A DNA stretch of 20,259 nucleotides from a virus: positions 1-20,259 of IMG/VR virus record IMGVR_UViG_3300035633_000036; one strand, written 5' to 3'. The notes beneath the pieces were generated by a model. It made no database searches. It worked only from the letters and a program-made list of their open reading frames with translations, and had not been told where the DNA came from. Every line of letters begins with the position of its first letter. The stretch's first letter is position 1. The translations under genes were made by a program, and so were the position numbers. Positions 12,820-20,259 of this stretch are shown one piece after another.

Positions 12820-13893
12820 CTACGTGTTCTTCTTGTACGCTAGTCCGTACTCAATAGTGTTAACGAGGTCTACCGGATCTGACCCGCTGACAGTATTATC
12901 TCTCAGGCCCTTACGCTTGAATGGGAAGATTACCCACTCCTCACTACCATACGTGAGCACGGTACCAGGGGCTACGTCATCAATACGAGCGTACCTAACA
13001 CCAGGAAGTACCCCTAGCATAATGTGACTCCTCGGGCTCCCTGTATCTCTGAAGAGCATAGGAAGAGCCCACATAACGGTACCTCCGGTAGTAGGCTGGT
13101 TATATGAAGGGAGAGTAAAGTCAAGTATCCTACCCTGACTCGGAGGGTTCCAGTGGTCTTCATCCTCCCAGTCTCTCTTCATTACAGTAGTAAGTTGACT
13201 ACCATTGAAGGGTAGACCGTTCGGGCTCACGTCCTGGAAGCCTGTAGGTAGTACAGGGTCTGACACACTATGAGGTATGAAGACCTGTCCTTCTTCGTCA
13301 TCTCCCCAGTAGTACCCACAGTTATGATTGTCACTAGCAGGGTTGTTATTAGTAAAGGAACTGAGCCACCACTCCCACCACATAGAACAACAGAAAGCAC
13401 ATTCAGCATGAGTCTGACCTACAGGGTCAATGATACCTACGCTGAAGTGAGAGTAACGCTCACCAGCTGTCTGTACTACCATGTGGATATACTCAACGTC
13501 TCCTGCTCCACCAGAGAAGAACCACACATTAATAAAAGGAGGCTCCCCTAGATCATTGCAGCGTACGCGGTCATTATCCGTCTCAGTGGTTACGATAGAG
13601 TCAGGGTGATCGTGGTACTGATAAGGAGGCCCCGAGTCAAGACTACTAGAGAGAGCTGCACTCGTGTAGCCGTCAGTCTCTCCGGCTTTGTCTATATTGA
13701 GGTCTGCTGTACGTGTACCCATTGCCAGATGACAGTTACTGACCTCCATAGCTATTTGACGGATCTCAGGAGGCCCTACTATAGTTACCTCGTTATACTC
13801 CCCTGTCCAGGCTCCGTCTGTTACCGTACCGAAGGTATAGAGCTTGTCTAACAGGTCTGATACGTCAGTAGCACTTGTGTTCTGATAGGCCAT
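12820..13893 (-). CDS. Virion protein, paralog 2 of a tandem pair
   Basis: The 357-residue protein is similar in plan to its upstream neighbour (13896-14858). Both start with MAxxxxTAxD or SATD followed by DLLxxL and a Gly-Thr-Trp or Gly-Ala-Trp motif near residue 24. Both have a central hydrophobic beta region ending in a xxxGFFxP or xxVGIIDP motif, and a C-terminal part with a VRYARIDDVAPGTVLTYGSE-like segment before an aromatic strand. This copy has a Cys/His-rich middle (HAECAFCCSMWWEWW and nearby His/Cys) that the other lacks, which may bind metal. A GGAGGAGG ribosome binding site precedes the ATG. Position after the tape measure suggests a tail-tip or tail-fibre-associated protein; no direct function is known to me. 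Confidence 0.7.
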   Translation of the reverse strand: MAYQNTSATDVSDLLDKLYTFGTVTDGAWTGEYNEVTIVGPPEIRQIAMEVSNCHLAMGTRTADLNIDKAGETDGYTSAALSSSLDSGPPYQYHDHPDSIVTTETDNDRVRCNDLGEPPFINVWFFSGGAGDVEYIHMVVQTAGERYSHFSVGIIDPVGQTHAECAFCCSMWWEWWLSSFTNNNPASDNHNCGYYWGDDEEGQVFIPHSVSDPVLPTGFQDVSPNGLPFNGSQLTTVMKRDWEDEDHWNPPSQGRILDFTLPSYNQPTTGGTVMWALPMLFRDTGSPRSHIMLGVLPGVRYARIDDVAPGTVLTYGSEEWVIFPFKRKGLRDNTVSGSDPVDLVNTIEYGLAYKKNT

Positions 13894-13895
13894 TA

Positions 13896-14858
13896 CTACA
13901 CCTCCTCCACAGCAAAGAAGTCTCCTGCCTGGTTCCTAAAGACTCGTTGAAAGAGACGGAACGTCCTTCCTCCGAGCGTCAGTGTCTGGTTAGTTACTCG
14001 GTTGTGACCACACACGGAGTACACCCCTTCGAGAGATCCTGCTACGAGTCTAGCAGGCATATCTACTATATGAGGCTGGAAGAGTACTGACTCATCCTTA
14101 CCGTTGAGCTTCATCCTCCCAAAGCCTGACTCAGACCAGTAGTCCGGATTATCTGAGAAGCCTCCAGTAGCAAGGCCTGTCTTGTGAGGCCACATAAAGC
14201 AGCGTTCTCCATTCTTTGCTACAACAGATCCTGTACCACTACCCTGATTTACTATAGGCTCCCAGATACCGCTTGTACGTCTCCGGTAGAATGCTGCCCC
14301 ATCTCCAGGATCTACTATGCTGGAGTTCTTAGCATTGTTAAAGTCCGGTTGCTTCATCTCGTCATAGCTCCCTAGAATTACCAGAGGGAAGGGATACTCA
14401 CTAGGTAGAGCAATCGGCAGGAAGAACCCCGCGTACATACTCATATAGTTAGTACCTCCACAGAGAGCTACCACTACGAAGCGTCTGTCATTAGCGTAGA
14501 ACCAGTACGTTATTGATCCTGGAGCACTACCGCTCAAGTTGAACCAGGTAGGCCCTCCGGCTCCAGGTTGTGCACCGTGAGCTACGGACGGTGTGTAGCC
14601 TATAGCCCCGTAGAGTCTCCACGAGTATATAGGTGTGAGATCTGCTACCGTGTCTATGTTTACGTAGACCTCTTTACCAGAACCTGCACCAGGCCCCTGC
14701 AAAGACAGTGAAGCAGTCTCCTGCAGATCTACACCTATACCGCTCGGAGGAGGAGTCCAGTCAAGCTCAGTCCACGTACCGAGAGTGACCGTTAACCATA
14801 TACGAAGATCGTTAAGTAGATCGTGGTAGTTATCCGCTGTACTAGTGGTAAAGGCCAT
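13896..14858 (-). CDS. Virion protein, paralog 1 of a tandem pair
   Basis: The 320-residue protein is the first gene after the tape measure and the probable parent or sister of 12820-13893; the stop of this one is two bases before the next start. It is beta-rich with a hydrophobic core (YWFYANDRRFVVVALCGG) and a C-terminal segment (EGVYSVCGHNRVTNQTLTLG then FRLFQRVF) that lines up with the end of its paralog. No signal peptide or membrane span is present. GGAGGAGG precedes the ATG. Proteins of this general type sit after the tape measure in other siphophages in my memory, without clear function. A role in the tail tip complex or as a fibre adaptor is inferred. Confidence 0.7.
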   Translation of the reverse strand: MAFTTSTADNYHDLLNDLRIWLTVTLGTWTELDWTPPPSGIGVDLQETASLSLQGPGAGSGKEVYVNIDTVADLTPIYSWRLYGAIGYTPSVAHGAQPGAGGPTWFNLSGSAPGSITYWFYANDRRFVVVALCGGTNYMSMYAGFFLPIALPSEYPFPLVILGSYDEMKQPDFNNAKNSSIVDPGDGAAFYRRRTSGIWEPIVNQGSGTGSVVAKNGERCFMWPHKTGLATGGFSDNPDYWSESGFGRMKLNGKDESVLFQPHIVDMPARLVAGSLEGVYSVCGHNRVTNQTLTLGGRTFRLFQRVFRNQAGDFFAVEEV

Positions 14859-14861
14859 TCG

Positions 14862-17627
14862 TTATCCTCCTCCTAAGGCCCTTTTGATCTGACCAGGATT
14901 ACGTCTGACAAAGTTAAGGAAGAGCTTCTCTCCCTCTCGTGTGTCCATTGCGTCAACTGCTGCCTTAGGGTCAAAGACGTTAACCTGTCGTACGTTCAGT
15001 TCAGGAGCAGGAACATTGACGTTAGGTGCAGCTCCGTGTCCTACTGTTACCTGCTCTCCTGGTGTAGCTTTGAATGCTACTAGCTGACTGTCAGGGCCTC
15101 CGCTACCTCCTACCTTGAAGGAGCCTCCGTGCTGGAAGCCTGGTATAGGTGCAGCTCCAGCTGCAGGCCCTATACCTGGAATGAGAGACAGAAGAGCTTT
15201 ACGAAGTAGAAGCCTCGTGAGATCTGCTAGTATTGAGTCTATCAGTCCCTTGAAGTCTGCTTCTCCTGTTGTTACGAAGTCTGTTAGTGCCTGCTCTGCT
15301 CCTTGCCACGCATTGACTAGAGCCCCTTCAGATACTGAGGCTAAGTCTAGGATATCATCTTGTATCTTCTGCAGACCTCGTGTCACACCCGAGGCTGTGT
15401 CAGTAGCAAAGTCCAGAGAGATTAGCTTCAGTCTCTCCATAGCTGCAGTGTACTGCTGTATTGATATAAGCCCCTCGTCACGAGCAAGAGTGAGCTGCTT
15501 CTCCATCTCTAGCAGCTGCATCTGTGGAGTAACACTATCCTGTACCAGATCGTTGAAAGTCTGCAGAGCTTGTACCTTCTGTAGCTGCAGGTCTAAGGAT
15601 TCTCTCTCGGTAGGACTGAGCCCCTCTTTTATAGACTTGTCAATCTCTAGCAGCTGTGCTTCTCTCTCCCTCTCTGTGTTACTCATCCGTAGCAGATTTA
15701 TCTGCTCTTCAAGATCCGCGTTAGACTTCTCGTAACTAGGAAGCTCAAGAGCAATCTCCTCAATACCTTTGTACTGCTCCTTCAGCTCCTGCAGTTTAGC
15801 AATAGCCTGAGCCTGTGTTATCTCTCCTTCTTTCACGAGTGCATTTAGATGCTCCTCGAATCTTATTAGATCCTGGGCAGGGCCTATTATGGACTTGAGC
15901 AGCTCTTTTCTCTCCTCCATAAATTCGTTGTTCTTCTCTATAGCCTGACGTTCTTTGACAAGCTCGGTTACTCTCTTGATCTCTCCGCTAAGTAGCTTCC
16001 TCCCTGCCTGGTCTGCAGCGTCCATAAGAGCTACTTCTATCTCTCTAGCCTCCTCAGTCATACGTAGGAGTCTGTTCTCTTCTTTCAGTTTGGTTATGAA
16101 CCCAGCAACAGCCTTAGTCTGCTTCTCCTGCTCTTCCTTCTGTGCCTTGAGTGCTTTCACTTCTGCTAACCGAGCACGTATCATCTGCAGGGCTTTAGCG
16201 TGTGCAGCATCCTGCATCCTCTCTGCTTCGTCCATCTCTCGGTTAAGCTTGTCCATCAATGCTATAGTCCCTCCGATTGCTACCGCTCCGAATGCAATAA
16301 GCGGGTTAGTCATGATGACTCCCCACAGATTACGGAACGCTGCAGCAAGACGAAGCACACTAGCTCTCAAGGCCACAGTAGAGCCCGTACTCATTGCTGC
16401 CATTCCCACGGACAGCTTGAGAAGACCCTTAGACATATTGACAATGAGGATAGTAGCCTTACCGAAGATCTGAGGCCCGAAGGTTATTGCCATTGTCACC
16501 CCGAGGGCCTTTACCAGATCTATAGTAGCTTCGAGATTCTCTGACAGCTTACGGAGTGCACCAGCTAGACCCTCGAAGAACTGCTTTAGGTTCTCCTGAG
16601 CCCCTAGCTTACCCATCTCAAGTACAACAGACTCGAAGGCAGACTTAGTACGAAGAAGAGCCCCGTTGAGGTTATCGTCCATAATACGGGCTATCTCATC
16701 TGCAGTACCTCCTGCTGCTTTGAGATGTTTTATAGCGTCCTGTATATGAGGTATGTTACTCTTCAGGACTTCAAAAGCAGGGCCTCCACGTTGCCCGAAG
16801 ACCTCAAGAGCCTTGCCCGTGTCAATGCCTGCTTTCTCCATCTGCTGAAGAGCTACAACGAGGCCTACTGTGGATACCTCTACGTTCTCTTCCTCTATAC
16901 CCAGATCCTTGAGTATCTTTGCAGCAGGGCCTCCTACGGACTCAAGCTCTGCCATAACTCTACGGAGTCCGGTACCAGCAAGAGAAGCCTGCAGGCCTGC
17001 ATCTGACAAGGCCATAACAGCAGCTACGGTCTCTTCAAGAGATACCCTGAGACCAGCTGATACAGGAGCAACGAACTTGATTGCTTCTCCGAGCTGCTGA
17101 ACGTTCGTGTTAGACGTGTTAGCAGCAAGAGCTAGAACGTCCACAACCCTAGAGGCCTGGTCTGTATCGAGACGGAAGCCTCGTATAGTCTTTGCTGTGA
17201 TATCAGCTGCAGAGGCAAGGTCTAGCGCTCCAGCCTGAGCAAGCTTGAGCGTGTCATCTACGGTCTCCATTGTCTCAGCAGCATTGAAGCCTGCACGAGA
17301 TAGGAGTACCATACCTTGAGCTGCTTCCGAGGCTGTGAACCTGGTAGTAGCTCCGAGCTGCTTTGCAGTCTCTTCTAGCTGCTCAAACTCAAAAGCAGTA
17401 GCTCCGGTAATAGCCTGTACTGTGCTCATCTCTTGCGAGAAGTCAGCAAGTAGCTTGATACCGGCTCCTACACCTACTGCAGCTCCGAAGATAGCAAAGG
17501 TCTTGACAAGCGTAGCCTGGAGAGTCTTAGCCCGTGCCTCAGTAGTAGCAAGAGATCCTTGTACTACTCGGTTAGCTGCTACTGCTTGAGTAGGATCTAC
17601 CTTAACTCGTATGAAGAAGTCAGCCAC
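14862..17627 (-). CDS. Tail tape measure protein
   Basis: The 921-residue protein sets tail length and is ejected with the DNA. Residues about 65-265 carry the TP901-type tape measure core (QEMSTVQAITGA, AKQLGATTRFTASEAAQGM, LSRAGF and onward). Two hydrophobic regions lie near 375-400 and 435-460 and may enter the host membrane. A long coiled coil rich in Glu, Lys and Leu follows (about 460-740). The C-terminus has the usual QHGGSF and GGPDSQLVAFKATPGEQV motifs (from about 832). At roughly 0.15 nm per residue the tail would be about 140 nm. The GTG start (MADFF) overlaps the end of the chaperone extension by eight bases, with a weak purine-rich ribosome binding site, so translation is probably coupled to the frameshifted frame. 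Confidence 0.93.
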   Translation of the reverse strand: MADFFIRVKVDPTQAVAANRVVQGSLATTEARAKTLQATLVKTFAIFGAAVGVGAGIKLLADFSQEMSTVQAITGATAFEFEQLEETAKQLGATTRFTASEAAQGMVLLSRAGFNAAETMETVDDTLKLAQAGALDLASAADITAKTIRGFRLDTDQASRVVDVLALAANTSNTNVQQLGEAIKFVAPVSAGLRVSLEETVAAVMALSDAGLQASLAGTGLRRVMAELESVGGPAAKILKDLGIEEENVEVSTVGLVVALQQMEKAGIDTGKALEVFGQRGGPAFEVLKSNIPHIQDAIKHLKAAGGTADEIARIMDDNLNGALLRTKSAFESVVLEMGKLGAQENLKQFFEGLAGALRKLSENLEATIDLVKALGVTMAITFGPQIFGKATILIVNMSKGLLKLSVGMAAMSTGSTVALRASVLRLAAAFRNLWGVIMTNPLIAFGAVAIGGTIALMDKLNREMDEAERMQDAAHAKALQMIRARLAEVKALKAQKEEQEKQTKAVAGFITKLKEENRLLRMTEEAREIEVALMDAADQAGRKLLSGEIKRVTELVKERQAIEKNNEFMEERKELLKSIIGPAQDLIRFEEHLNALVKEGEITQAQAIAKLQELKEQYKGIEEIALELPSYEKSNADLEEQINLLRMSNTEREREAQLLEIDKSIKEGLSPTERESLDLQLQKVQALQTFNDLVQDSVTPQMQLLEMEKQLTLARDEGLISIQQYTAAMERLKLISLDFATDTASGVTRGLQKIQDDILDLASVSEGALVNAWQGAEQALTDFVTTGEADFKGLIDSILADLTRLLLRKALLSLIPGIGPAAGAAPIPGFQHGGSFKVGGSGGPDSQLVAFKATPGEQVTVGHGAAPNVNVPAPELNVRQVNVFDPKAAVDAMDTREGEKLFLNFVRRNPGQIKRALGGG

Positions 17628-18398
17628 TCTTCTTAGCCTTCTTCCTTACCCATTCCAGGTACACAGTGTCCATTGCTCTTATTACCTGAACGAAGAGCGG
17701 TAGTAGATCCTCGTCTAGCTCGAAGTACTGAGCATAGTAGACAATATCCCTCCACGGAATAGGCCCTAAAAACACACCTATAGGACGGCAGGTACTTAGC
17801 TCATAGAAAGCGTCTAAATAGAACTGATCTCCAGGGTATAGTAGAGGTTCGTTGAGAGCCCACTCAGGAAGAGGTAACTTCCTAGCTATGAGGACTTCTA
17901 CAGCAAAGCTCCTGTCCTGGTATTCAAGTTCCCACTTTAGACGCTCCGCTAGTTTTTTGAGACTTCCTCCGTGTCCGGTAGCTCTTCCTCAACAAAGTTC
18001 TCAGGCTGTACACAGAAGACCCGTACCTCGTCAAAGATCCAGTCAGGTAGAACCTTCAAGAACTCTGTTACTTCCTCCACAGAGAAGGGAACCTTTTTGC
18101 CGTCATTGTCCGTTATGTTTTCCCAGCCTTTGATGACGTGACGAGGATACAATACCTTGTCATCATTCCTGGTGTCCTCAATGGTATGGGCTTCCAGCTT
18201 CTCTGTCAGCTTCTTAGGAGTGAGTCTAGCAGGGCCTGTCCTCCTCCTCTTCAGCAGAGCATTGAAGTAGTCCTTATTAGCCCCGAACGCTGGAGCTACT
18301 ATAAGAGTAGGCTCCCCGTGAGTCTTGTCCAGACGTTCTAGAACATAAGGGACAGTGCCTTTAGGCTCCTTCTTCTTCAGGTAATCATACTTACTCAT
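17620..18398 (-). CDS. Tail assembly chaperone, long form made by -1 frameshift (gpGT-like)
   Basis: The zero frame (18398-17949) ends at TCA AAA AAC TAG. A -1 slip on A AAA AAC opens a second frame (17952-17620) of 110 residues with no stop, ending at TGA inside the start of the tape measure gene. The second frame reads as a good protein (LAERLKWELEYQDRS, LPEWALNEPLLYPG, WRDIVYYAQYFELDEDLLP). It has no start of its own with a ribosome binding site and fills the gap before the tape measure. The product would be about 259 residues. This is the gpG/gpGT arrangement: the short form coats the tape measure and the extension recruits tube subunits. Position between tube and tape measure is exactly as expected. 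Confidence 0.88.
17949..18398 (-). CDS. Tail assembly chaperone, short form (gpG-like)
   Basis: The unshifted product has 149 residues from the ATG at 18398, which follows AAAAGGAG at seven bases. A longer frame exists from GTG at 18455, but that start lacks a ribosome binding site and its first codons run through a hairpin, so the shorter start is chosen. The protein is basic at the N-terminus (MSKYDYLKKK), mixed in the middle and acidic at the end (EEELPDTEEVSKN). It contains a VEEVTEFLKVLPDWIFDEV segment like other phage tail chaperones. It is expected to be made in excess over the long form and to be absent from the finished virion. Confidence 0.85.
   Translation of the reverse strand: MSKYDYLKKKEPKGTVPYVLERLDKTHGEPTLIVAPAFGANKDYFNALLKRRRTGPARLTPKKLTEKLEAHTIEDTRNDDKVLYPRHVIKGWENITDNDGKKVPFSVEEVTEFLKVLPDWIFDEVRVFCVQPENFVEEELPDTEEVSKN
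17952..17958 (-). promoter_or_regulatory. -1 ribosomal frameshift site AAAAAAC
   Basis: On the coding strand the heptamer A AAA AAC is in the correct phase (X XXY YYZ), with the zero-frame TAG as the next codon. GGAGG (17966-17970) lies seven bases upstream and could act as a ribosome-pausing stimulator, as an internal Shine-Dalgarno does in dnaX. I did not find a clear downstream stem by eye. Confidence 0.85.
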
Positions 18399-18444: not shown

Positions 18445-18462
18445 ATGTAGCTCACTTACCCG

Positions 18463-19971
18463 TTAAGCTGCAGGAGCGTACGGGAAAAGAGAGACACTGA
18501 TACAGTAACCGAGGGTAGCGTCCTCGAATGCCATTGAGGTAGTGTTAATGAGCACACTCTCGTTAGCAGGGAACTCTTTGTCTCCTCCTCCCATTGTCAT
18601 AGAGGGAACGTCTACGAAGAAAGCTCCGTCATCATTCCTGAGAGCGAAGTCAAGAGCTACCGTAGTGTTGTCCCTTATGGCAGTGGGAACAGCAGAGTTA
18701 GTGAAGAGGAGCTGAGCTTCTACGTCAACGAAGAACTGTCCTACGTTGAGAGCTGTAGCTCCTAAAGTACCGAGGCACTTTATAGGGCTGATATTGTTGT
18801 TAAGGGTCAGGTTCAGAGACTTGAAACAGGTACTTATACCTGTCTCGTCAAGCTCAATGATCCTGAGCCTTGCAATATCAGCAGACGTGTTGAAAGCTAC
18901 CGTCTGTACAGGAGCAAGCGGAGTGTCTGCACCAGTAGCACGGCTTCCGCTCGGAGGTGCAGTGTCCGTACCGTGGAACCCGAAGGTAGCTGTAGCCTTG
19001 TCAGTCAGAGGTAGCTGTACCTGAACCTGGTTACAGTAGTTACCCTTTGCATACTCGTACTCAGGAGTACCCACTCCTCCGAGATCCTCATACGCTGCCT
19101 CGAACTGCAGTGACTCTTCCAGGTAGAGAGCGTCATCTACTGAGACGTTCCGGAGGAAGCGTCCGAAGTAAATATGTATCTCTTTCCCTGATCCGTCATC
19201 TACAGCAAAGACGGTACTCTTTTTGTCCAGGGTGAGCTTAGCTGCAGTAATAGCAGTGATACGAGCCCAGCCTCTGTTAGTGTCGTTACTGATATCCTCT
19301 GCAAAGCGGTTGAGTGCTGCAGTGCCTCCTATCCAGATGACCTGTCCGACAGTCAAGCCCAGCGTAGTGAAGTCAACTCCACCGTTGCTAATGAGGTCTC
19401 CGCTTGCGTCTATCTCCAGGTCTGCAGCGTCTCCCTCGTATCCACAGACTGCTATACGAGCCTCTGTAGGTACAGGGTCTTCGTCAACGAGCGTCTCTGC
19501 TACTCGAATGCTAGTAGCCGTAGATCCTGCTACAACGGTCTTGAGTCCGTTGTTATCTGAGTTCGTACAGCCCCTAACGTAGATGAGTTGACCAGCGCTG
19601 AGCGCTCCGTCTGCAGTTACTGTGTAGTCACTCGTAGCGTTGATTACGTCAGTAAACTGCTCTGACTGATACTCTCCCCACGGCGCGGTACCCGCGTAGT
19701 CTGCCATAACGAAGTTAGACAGGAAGTCTAGGACGTGCTCCATTGTCAGATCTGCTTCAAACTCTACAGCACTTTCCAGATCCGTAGTGGTTCCCTTTTT
19801 CCTCTGTCTGTCCTTCGAGATAGGTTCTCGGGCTACCGTAGTGATCGTTGATCCGAAGGTAGTAATATCGTTAGGCTCTAGCGTCTTCCATTGAGGGGTA
19901 GTGGGGAGTACCCCTATGGTCTCCTCTTTGGCATACGCTAGGGCAACCTTGTTCGTTGATACCCTTGCCAT
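18463..19971 (-). CDS. Major tail tube protein with two inserted beta domains
   Basis: The 502-residue protein begins with ALAYAKEETIGVLPTTPQW, then AREPISKDRQRKKGTTTDLE, features of the Phage_tube_2 type of tube protein. It polymerises as stacked hexamer rings around the tape measure. Two related beta segments follow: about 105-175 (ALSAGQLIYVRG, then LKTVVAGSTATSIRV) and about 180-255 (LGLTVGQVIWIGG, then WARITAITAAKLTLD). They look like an internal duplication that may be exposed on the tube surface. The second half (about 270-502) completes the tube fold. AGGAGG (19979-19984) precedes the ATG at seven bases and overlaps the stop of the tail terminator gene. The next gene is 64 bases further on, behind a hairpin. 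Confidence 0.88.
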   Translation of the reverse strand: MARVSTNKVALAYAKEETIGVLPTTPQWKTLEPNDITTFGSTITTVAREPISKDRQRKKGTTTDLESAVEFEADLTMEHVLDFLSNFVMADYAGTAPWGEYQSEQFTDVINATSDYTVTADGALSAGQLIYVRGCTNSDNNGLKTVVAGSTATSIRVAETLVDEDPVPTEARIAVCGYEGDAADLEIDASGDLISNGGVDFTTLGLTVGQVIWIGGTAALNRFAEDISNDTNRGWARITAITAAKLTLDKKSTVFAVDDGSGKEIHIYFGRFLRNVSVDDALYLEESLQFEAAYEDLGGVGTPEYEYAKGNYCNQVQVQLPLTDKATATFGFHGTDTAPPSGSRATGADTPLAPVQTVAFNTSADIARLRIIELDETGISTCFKSLNLTLNNNISPIKCLGTLGATALNVGQFFVDVEAQLLFTNSAVPTAIRDNTTVALDFALRNDDGAFFVDVPSMTMGGGDKEFPANESVLINTTSMAFEDATLGYCISVSLFPYAPAA

Positions 19972-19982
19972 AGGTTAACCTC

Positions 19983-20259
19983 CTACTTAATCTCGTCGTA
20001 GGTAAACTCTACTATTACGTTGAGTCTAGCCCACTGCCCCTCTTTAGGAGCCTCTTGCGGTCTAGCGTCGTAAAAGAATACCTGATCTATTGTCTTGCCT
20101 TCAAAGAGGCCGAGGGCTGTGTTAGCTAACTCGTCTAGCCGTAGGAGACCTCTGTTAACGGCAGCGTAGAGCTGGATAAGCACAAGCCCTCGGCGCTCAT
20201 ACCTCCTATTACCTACCGCTCCTAGAGAGGGGCAGTGGGCTAGACTCAACGTAATAGTA
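19983..20259 (-). CDS. Tail terminator protein, C-terminal part (5' end outside window)
   Basis: The frame is open to the window edge (whole codons from 20258), so the start lies outside. The TTG at 20249 is not a convincing start: it lacks a ribosome binding site and the protein sequence continues upstream. At least 91 residues are present. The pattern GNRRYERRGLVLIQLY, then LDELANTALGLFEGKTIDQV, FFYDARPQEAPKEGQWARL and a final VEFTYDEIK strand fits tail terminator proteins (DUF4128/gpU-like) that cap the tube at the head end. Its position directly before the tube gene is the usual one. The stop TAG overlaps the tube ribosome binding site. Confidence 0.75.
   Translation of the reverse strand, partial: TITLSLAHCPSLGAVGNRRYERRGLVLIQLYAAVNRGLLRLDELANTALGLFEGKTIDQVFFYDARPQEAPKEGQWARLNVIVEFTYDEIK

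Follow-up and report, generated by a model that had tools for sequence, protein, structure and literature searches.

The subject of this analysis is a candidate programmed frameshift in a tail assembly gene of an uncultivated phage, carried on the 20,259-nucleotide stretch of DNA that spans positions 1 to 20,259 of IMG/VR virus record IMGVR_UViG_3300035633_000036 (hereafter, the window). A zero-frame gene, G, opens at an ATG at 18398 and encodes 149 amino acids (17952–18398), while a start at the in-frame GTG at 18455 would lengthen the product to 168 amino acids. The end of G reads GAG GAA GTC TCA AAA AAC TAG; the slippery heptamer A_AAA_AAC (17958–17952) thus sits in phase directly 5′ of the zero-frame stop (17951–17949) and touches it. 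Seven nucleotides (nt) upstream of the heptamer is a Shine–Dalgarno (SD)-like GGAGG (17966–17970), a possible stimulator. In the −1 frame, a second coding region, T (17620–17952), runs from the slip site to a TGA at 17622–17620, its stop end overlapping the GTG at 17627 that starts the tail tape measure gene (14862–17627; phrog_38390, E 1.8e-127; PhageMin_Tail). Upstream of G lies the tail tube gene (18463–19971; PF18906 Phage_tube_2, E 2.8e-28; phrog_290), giving the order tail tube–G–T–tape measure. All of these features are on the minus strand; the earlier sequence-only reading of the window had named no strand. Two overlapping frames thus lie between the tube and tape measure genes, as in tail assembly chaperone pairs produced by programmed −1 frameshifting, reportedly of the type set out by Xu et al. 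in 2004.

The heptamer by itself proves little. AAAAAAC occurs once in the 20,259 bases when both strands are counted, against a chance expectation of 0.54, and at least one copy was present in 45 of 100 shuffles of the window. Since about half a copy is expected by chance, what counts is that the heptamer is in phase and touches the stop, and that the second frame is open. Free of stops from 17988, the −1 frame supplies exactly 110 codons (LAER...KKSG) after the slip, which fill the 321 bases that separate the G stop from the start of the tape measure gene. On all these points (an in-phase heptamer directly before the TAG, a stop immediately after the slip site, and 110 clean codons ahead of the tape measure gene), the sequence-only reading was correct. 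Over a 330-base stretch, the frame stayed open in 0 of 5,000 dinucleotide shuffles, and the two remaining frames contain 12 and 5 stops. T has no ATG, GTG, or TTG before 17775, 59 codons in, and thus no usable start of its own near the beginning. When T was compared with its counterpart in a relative (L032), nonsynonymous divergence (dN) was 0.14 and synonymous divergence (dS) 0.97, with 44 of the 71 differences at third positions; judged from these substitutions, the T codons are under purifying selection.

Profile searches placed both halves in chaperone families. G matched the tail assembly chaperone family phrog_313 (E 2.4e-16), and T matched phrog_3817, a tail chaperonin (E 5.9e-29), as well as Pfam PF23812, Phage_TAC_18 (56.9 bits against a cut-off of 27, E 2.4e-15). 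A single profile, phrog_8233, covers residues of both G and T (E 9.1e-15), and the homology of T begins at the slip site. The AlphaFold2 model of T is helical, with a predicted local distance difference test (pLDDT) score of 95.7 and a first helix that begins at residue 2 of the reading from the slip site. For G, the model is of mixed fold (pLDDT 85.1) and has a low-confidence end, which is what a linker to T would look like. Models of the 262-amino acid chaperone of phage Loki and the 268-amino acid chaperone of Colossus match the predicted structures of both G and T. Among solved structures, the best VIA-align match of G was the HK97 chaperone, 2ob9, with a Z of 5.6 that lies below the trust level of the tool (next row, 3.4); the alignment covers 101 residues at a root mean square deviation of 6.1 and 9% identity, so that the likeness of the modeled G to the HK97 chaperone fold is suggestive only. 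A Foldseek comparison of G with the PDB found no match at E 0.001, nothing falling under E 1.8; structure comparison turned up no convincing solved relative for the T model, and searches of PDB sequences with the G and T profiles returned chance-level rows only. At the DNA level, the G–T region had no blastn match in the phage collection. Together, the family matches support G and T as a tail-assembly chaperone pair on sequence grounds.

We then asked how far the junction is conserved. T was found in 277 phage records, of which 25 were examined, together with 80 of the 126 viral contigs that encode a relative, 4 genome contigs, and further contigs. After removal of duplicates, this gave 104 distinct loci, the window included, and 103 with a readable junction, one locus (L099) being cut at a contig end before it. 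Left out of these counts were L001, which is the window itself, 13 loci more than 95% identical, L033 (a near-twin of L032), and L028–L031, L116, L117, L119, and the loci from a +1-pattern search described below, which were contigs already counted, near-duplicates, tape measure pieces, or loci with no T. In L121–L125, the heptamers were located by eye and then checked for phase.

An in-phase heptamer of the form XXXYYYZ was present within the overlap in 98 of the 103 readable loci: GGGAAAC in 51, AAAAAAC in 43, GGGAAAG in 3, and GGGAAAA in 1. The zero-frame stop adjoined it in 71 of the 98, lay 3 nt off in 13 and 12 nt off in 9, and was farther on in the remaining 5, the non-adjacent stops ranging from 3 to 51 nt away. 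As a control, the bodies of the G genes at the same loci contained XXXYYYZ at 39 of 14,091 in-phase positions, and AAAAAAC or GGGAAAC at just 1. This comparative sequence evidence is decisive beyond chance. The sequence-only reading had named relatives lacking both the slippery site and the second frame as one finding that would overturn it; among the relatives surveyed, the heptamer, its phase, and its position proved to be conserved. The first three bases also change as a block: L026, with AAAAAAC, and L015, with GGGAAAC, are 83% identical in T. Such an exchange of AAA for GGG indicates that the identity of the XXX bases is constrained, as tandem re-pairing requires. Parsimony on a tree gave 26 AAA/GGG changes and 19 changes in stop adjacency; because 57 of its 89 inner branches were unresolved, the block-swap argument is made from this pair instead. 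In two Rhodobacter phages, RcSimone-Hastad and RcRudolph, the depositors had joined both frames in one coding sequence. In RDJL Phi 1 (L006), R6L (L014), and YuA (L023), the T frame is present, but the annotation passes from G straight to the following gene. In two other distinct loci, L063/L064 (near 1490–1515) and L096 (near 1490–1500), (C/T)TG GGG GAR takes the place of G GGA AAC, and this G_GGG_GAR is possibly an alternative slip site.

Taken together, the conserved heptamer with its phase and position, the selection on the T frame, the chaperone families, the joined coding sequences of two phages, and the structure models support the −1 frameshift first proposed from the sequence. We consider it highly probable that the locus encodes a siphophage tail-assembly chaperone in two forms, through a −1 slip at A_AAA_AAC; that slippage occurs, that its level is low, and what the proteins do are the parts that we infer. 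Most ribosomes would translate the 149-amino acid G and stop at the TAG. In a minority, the tRNA-Lys on AAA and the tRNA-Asn on AAC would slip one base back on A_AAA_AAC to AAA_AAA, and these ribosomes would read past the TAG in the −1 frame, extending the chain by the T domain of 110 residues to a GT protein of about 259 amino acids. By analogy with lambda, in which the roles of G and GT have been described (PMC5009743), abundant G would coat the tape measure and scarce GT would recruit the tail tube protein.

The resemblance to lambda lies in the gene order tube–G–T–tape measure, a −1 slip near the end of G, and a heptamer of the XXXYYYZ form. The systems differ in that lambda, which served as a control, has an in-phase GGGAAAG 15 nt upstream of its G stop, whereas AAAAAAC here touches the stop, and in that no kinship of sequence was detected by profile comparison with lambda G or T (hhalign probabilities 0.1% and 3.5%, respectively). 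The label "gpGT-type" given by the sequence-only reading therefore holds for the mode of action but not for sequence kinship with lambda G or T. Closer parallels in arrangement are found in print. In Loki, AAAAAAC directly adjoins the gp12 stop, with a predicted gp12/gp13 G–T fusion (PMC5313236), and in KL1, GGGAAAC lies directly before the gp18 TGA, with a predicted gp18/gp19 fusion (PMC3483164). Both share the adjacent-stop heptamer with the window, although they are different phages and their sites are predicted; in KL1, moreover, one further gene precedes the tape measure gene, whereas T here overlaps its start. Predicted −1 sites in chaperone genes ahead of the tape measure have also been described as AAAAAAC in phiCbK gp93/gp94 and relatives and as GGGAAAC in CcrColossus (PMC3556154), which are large prolate Caulobacter phages, unlike the virus of the window. 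Since the adjacent-stop arrangement is already in print for Loki and KL1, the window locus is a further example of a known device, and a clear but ordinary one of a device widespread among phages.

Three alternatives would dispense with ribosomal slippage altogether. T could be an independent gene, expressed from a start codon of its own or through GGAGG-assisted re-initiation once ribosomes have terminated at the end of G; an SD-like element does precede the stop, and many depositors annotate T as an open reading frame in its own right. However, T has no ATG, GTG, or TTG for 59 codons, yet its homology and its first helix begin at the slip site, and re-initiation leaves the in-phase heptamers of the surveyed loci unexplained, which makes this very improbable. 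Less credible still is slippage by RNA polymerase on the A6 run, whereby part of the mRNA would read T in frame. The heptamer does contain six A, but a six-A run is short for polymerase slippage, and GGGAAAC, which has no long single-base run, occupies the same place in 51 of the 98 loci, including one of the pair 83% identical in T; the AAA/GGG block exchange agrees with a one-base backward shift in the pairing of two tRNAs, and it speaks against the polymerase. Just as remote is the notion that G and T are one gene that was split, whether by faulty sequencing or by a mutation that arose recently: one base would join the frames, but the same stop and frame change recur among the surveyed relatives, including isolated phages with complete genomes.

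The fourth alternative concerns how the ribosome slips rather than whether it does. In a stop-driven slip, AAC would occupy the P site and the TAG the A site, slow termination would give time, and the GGAGG would pull the mRNA back. Contact between stop and heptamer, present in 71 of the 98 loci, agrees with this, and the GGAGG lies 11 nt from the P-site AAC, within the 9 to 14 nt quoted for stimulators of −1 shifts. Nevertheless, the adjacent stops are unskewed (31 TAA, 30 TGA, and 10 TAG), and the heptamer is kept in the 27 of 98 loci where the stop is 3 to 51 nt away. Leu is also the usual residue after the slip even when the stop is not adjacent: an adjacent stop forces it, as in 68 of 68 such loci, but it also stands in 17 of the 26 loci with a non-adjacent stop, which are under no such constraint. 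Because a Leu codon after the slip needs a T after the heptamer, an adjacent stop arises easily for coding reasons alone. We therefore regard the stop-driven slip as possible but not needed, and as unlikely, if clearly less so than the three alternatives above.

The sequence-only reading had suggested that the GGAGG could stimulate the slip, and we examined both upstream and downstream candidates. For dnaX-like −1 sites stimulated by an SD-like element, the spacing quoted is 9 to 14 nt before the shift site (PMC5009743). The GGAGG of the window is 7 nt from the heptamer, which is shorter, 8 nt from the AAA codon, and 11 nt from AAC; in the window alone, 42% of synonymous controls pair as well as it does. 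Across 93 loci, by contrast, pairing with the anti-SD sequence was stronger than in synonymous controls by about −1.25 kcal/mol at spacings of 5 to 7 nt (Wilcoxon p near 1e-6), in a test that ignores relatedness and whose value at spacing 17 is spoilt by the no-pairing score; comparison of the best site across all spacings was weak (p 0.03). Codon choice pointed the same way. Where Glu lies 11 to 9 nt before the heptamer and G comes next, GAG:GAA was 38:14, compared with 299:343 elsewhere (p 2.6e-4), and among 52 loci with less than 50% T identity, the same codon gave 22:8 (p 0.005). Among the 93 relatives, then, an SD-like GAGG at the fixed spacing of 11 to 8 nt before the heptamer is favored more than synonymous codon choice would explain. 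A stimulatory role for the SD-like element is thus plausible at the level of the family: the GGAGG is real and a GAGG at its place is enriched among relatives, while in the window itself the spacing is short and the pairing ordinary.

Downstream of the heptamer, the sequence-only reading had proposed folding positions 17900–17951 in search of a stimulator. This 52-nt stretch folds well (z −3.2), with a stem that starts at the TAG. Folds that start 3 and 6 nt later scored −0.8 and +0.9, respectively, and only 10 of the 15 pairs are possible in the nearest relative. We rejected the hairpin as a stimulator, since its stem includes the TAG, which the ribosome would cover, its score is lost without the first 3 to 6 nt, and it is not conserved in the nearest relative; the downstream stimulator was thus unsupported. 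In the family as a whole, mean z was −1.12 at +0, −1.18 at +3, and −0.48 at +100 from the heptamer, with z under −2 in 27, 29, and 12 of the 93 loci, respectively, so that some members may use a downstream stem.

Several observations weigh against the frameshift as we propose it. Both stimulator candidates in this window are weak. In Escherichia coli, A_AAA_AAC is reported to be much less shift-prone than A_AAA_AAG (PMC5009743), and a stimulator or an effect of the host may therefore be needed. In addition, the canonical heptamer is absent from 5 of the 103 loci, namely L063 and L096, noted above, and L058, L118, and L120, in which T is in the +1 frame.

These last three represent a lineage of three distinct sequences on five contigs, L116 (the same as L058 and L117), L118 (the same as L119), and L120, with the site at about 1525–1560 in L116. 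The G stop comes about 13 codons earlier, T and the usual tail of G are in the +1 frame, and the zero frame ends in TTT CGA TCC TGA. All three share, without a single difference, a 33-nt block around AAC TTT CGA TCC TGA C, in a region that is otherwise 71% identical and whose next longest identical run is 17. A search with the +1 pattern returned 24 stretches, of which 5 were on contigs already known to have T in the +1 frame; the remaining 19 had no T match. On balance, and by a narrow preference, the sequences suggest that this lineage has dropped the −1 module and expresses the two genes through a conserved +1 shift about 13 codons earlier. Plausible types of +1 site are a move from TTT to TTC before the slow codon CGA, or one on TCC before TGA. 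The same frame could be reached by a slip of −2, a possible alternative. A −2 site has been reported in phage 9g (PMC4276943). In the literature that we searched on frameshifting in this chaperone family, we noticed no paper on the +1 lineage. If the +1 reading is true, the direction of frameshifting is interchangeable in orthologous genes.

Two other features of the window stand apart from the chaperone locus. A 42-nt inverted repeat (20010–20051 and 20218–20259; 98% complementary), one arm of which is at the very end of the record, probably arose as a fold-back artefact during assembly or amplification. Downstream of the tape measure gene, two adjacent structural genes on the minus strand (12820–13893 and 13896–14858) both match phrog_687, and their N-termini are similar (43% over 30 residues); from this similarity, they are likely old tandem duplicates.

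For this uncultivated phage, the correct gene model is G plus GT, instead of G followed by unassigned sequence or of a T begun at the wrong codon. The locus also enlarges a family in which annotations of the T half often begin at an internal start codon or are missing. The survey also provides a natural data set on the parts of a −1 site, namely the AAA/GGG block exchange, the adjacent stop, and an SD-like element at fixed spacing, together with one lineage that appears to have changed the direction of the shift.

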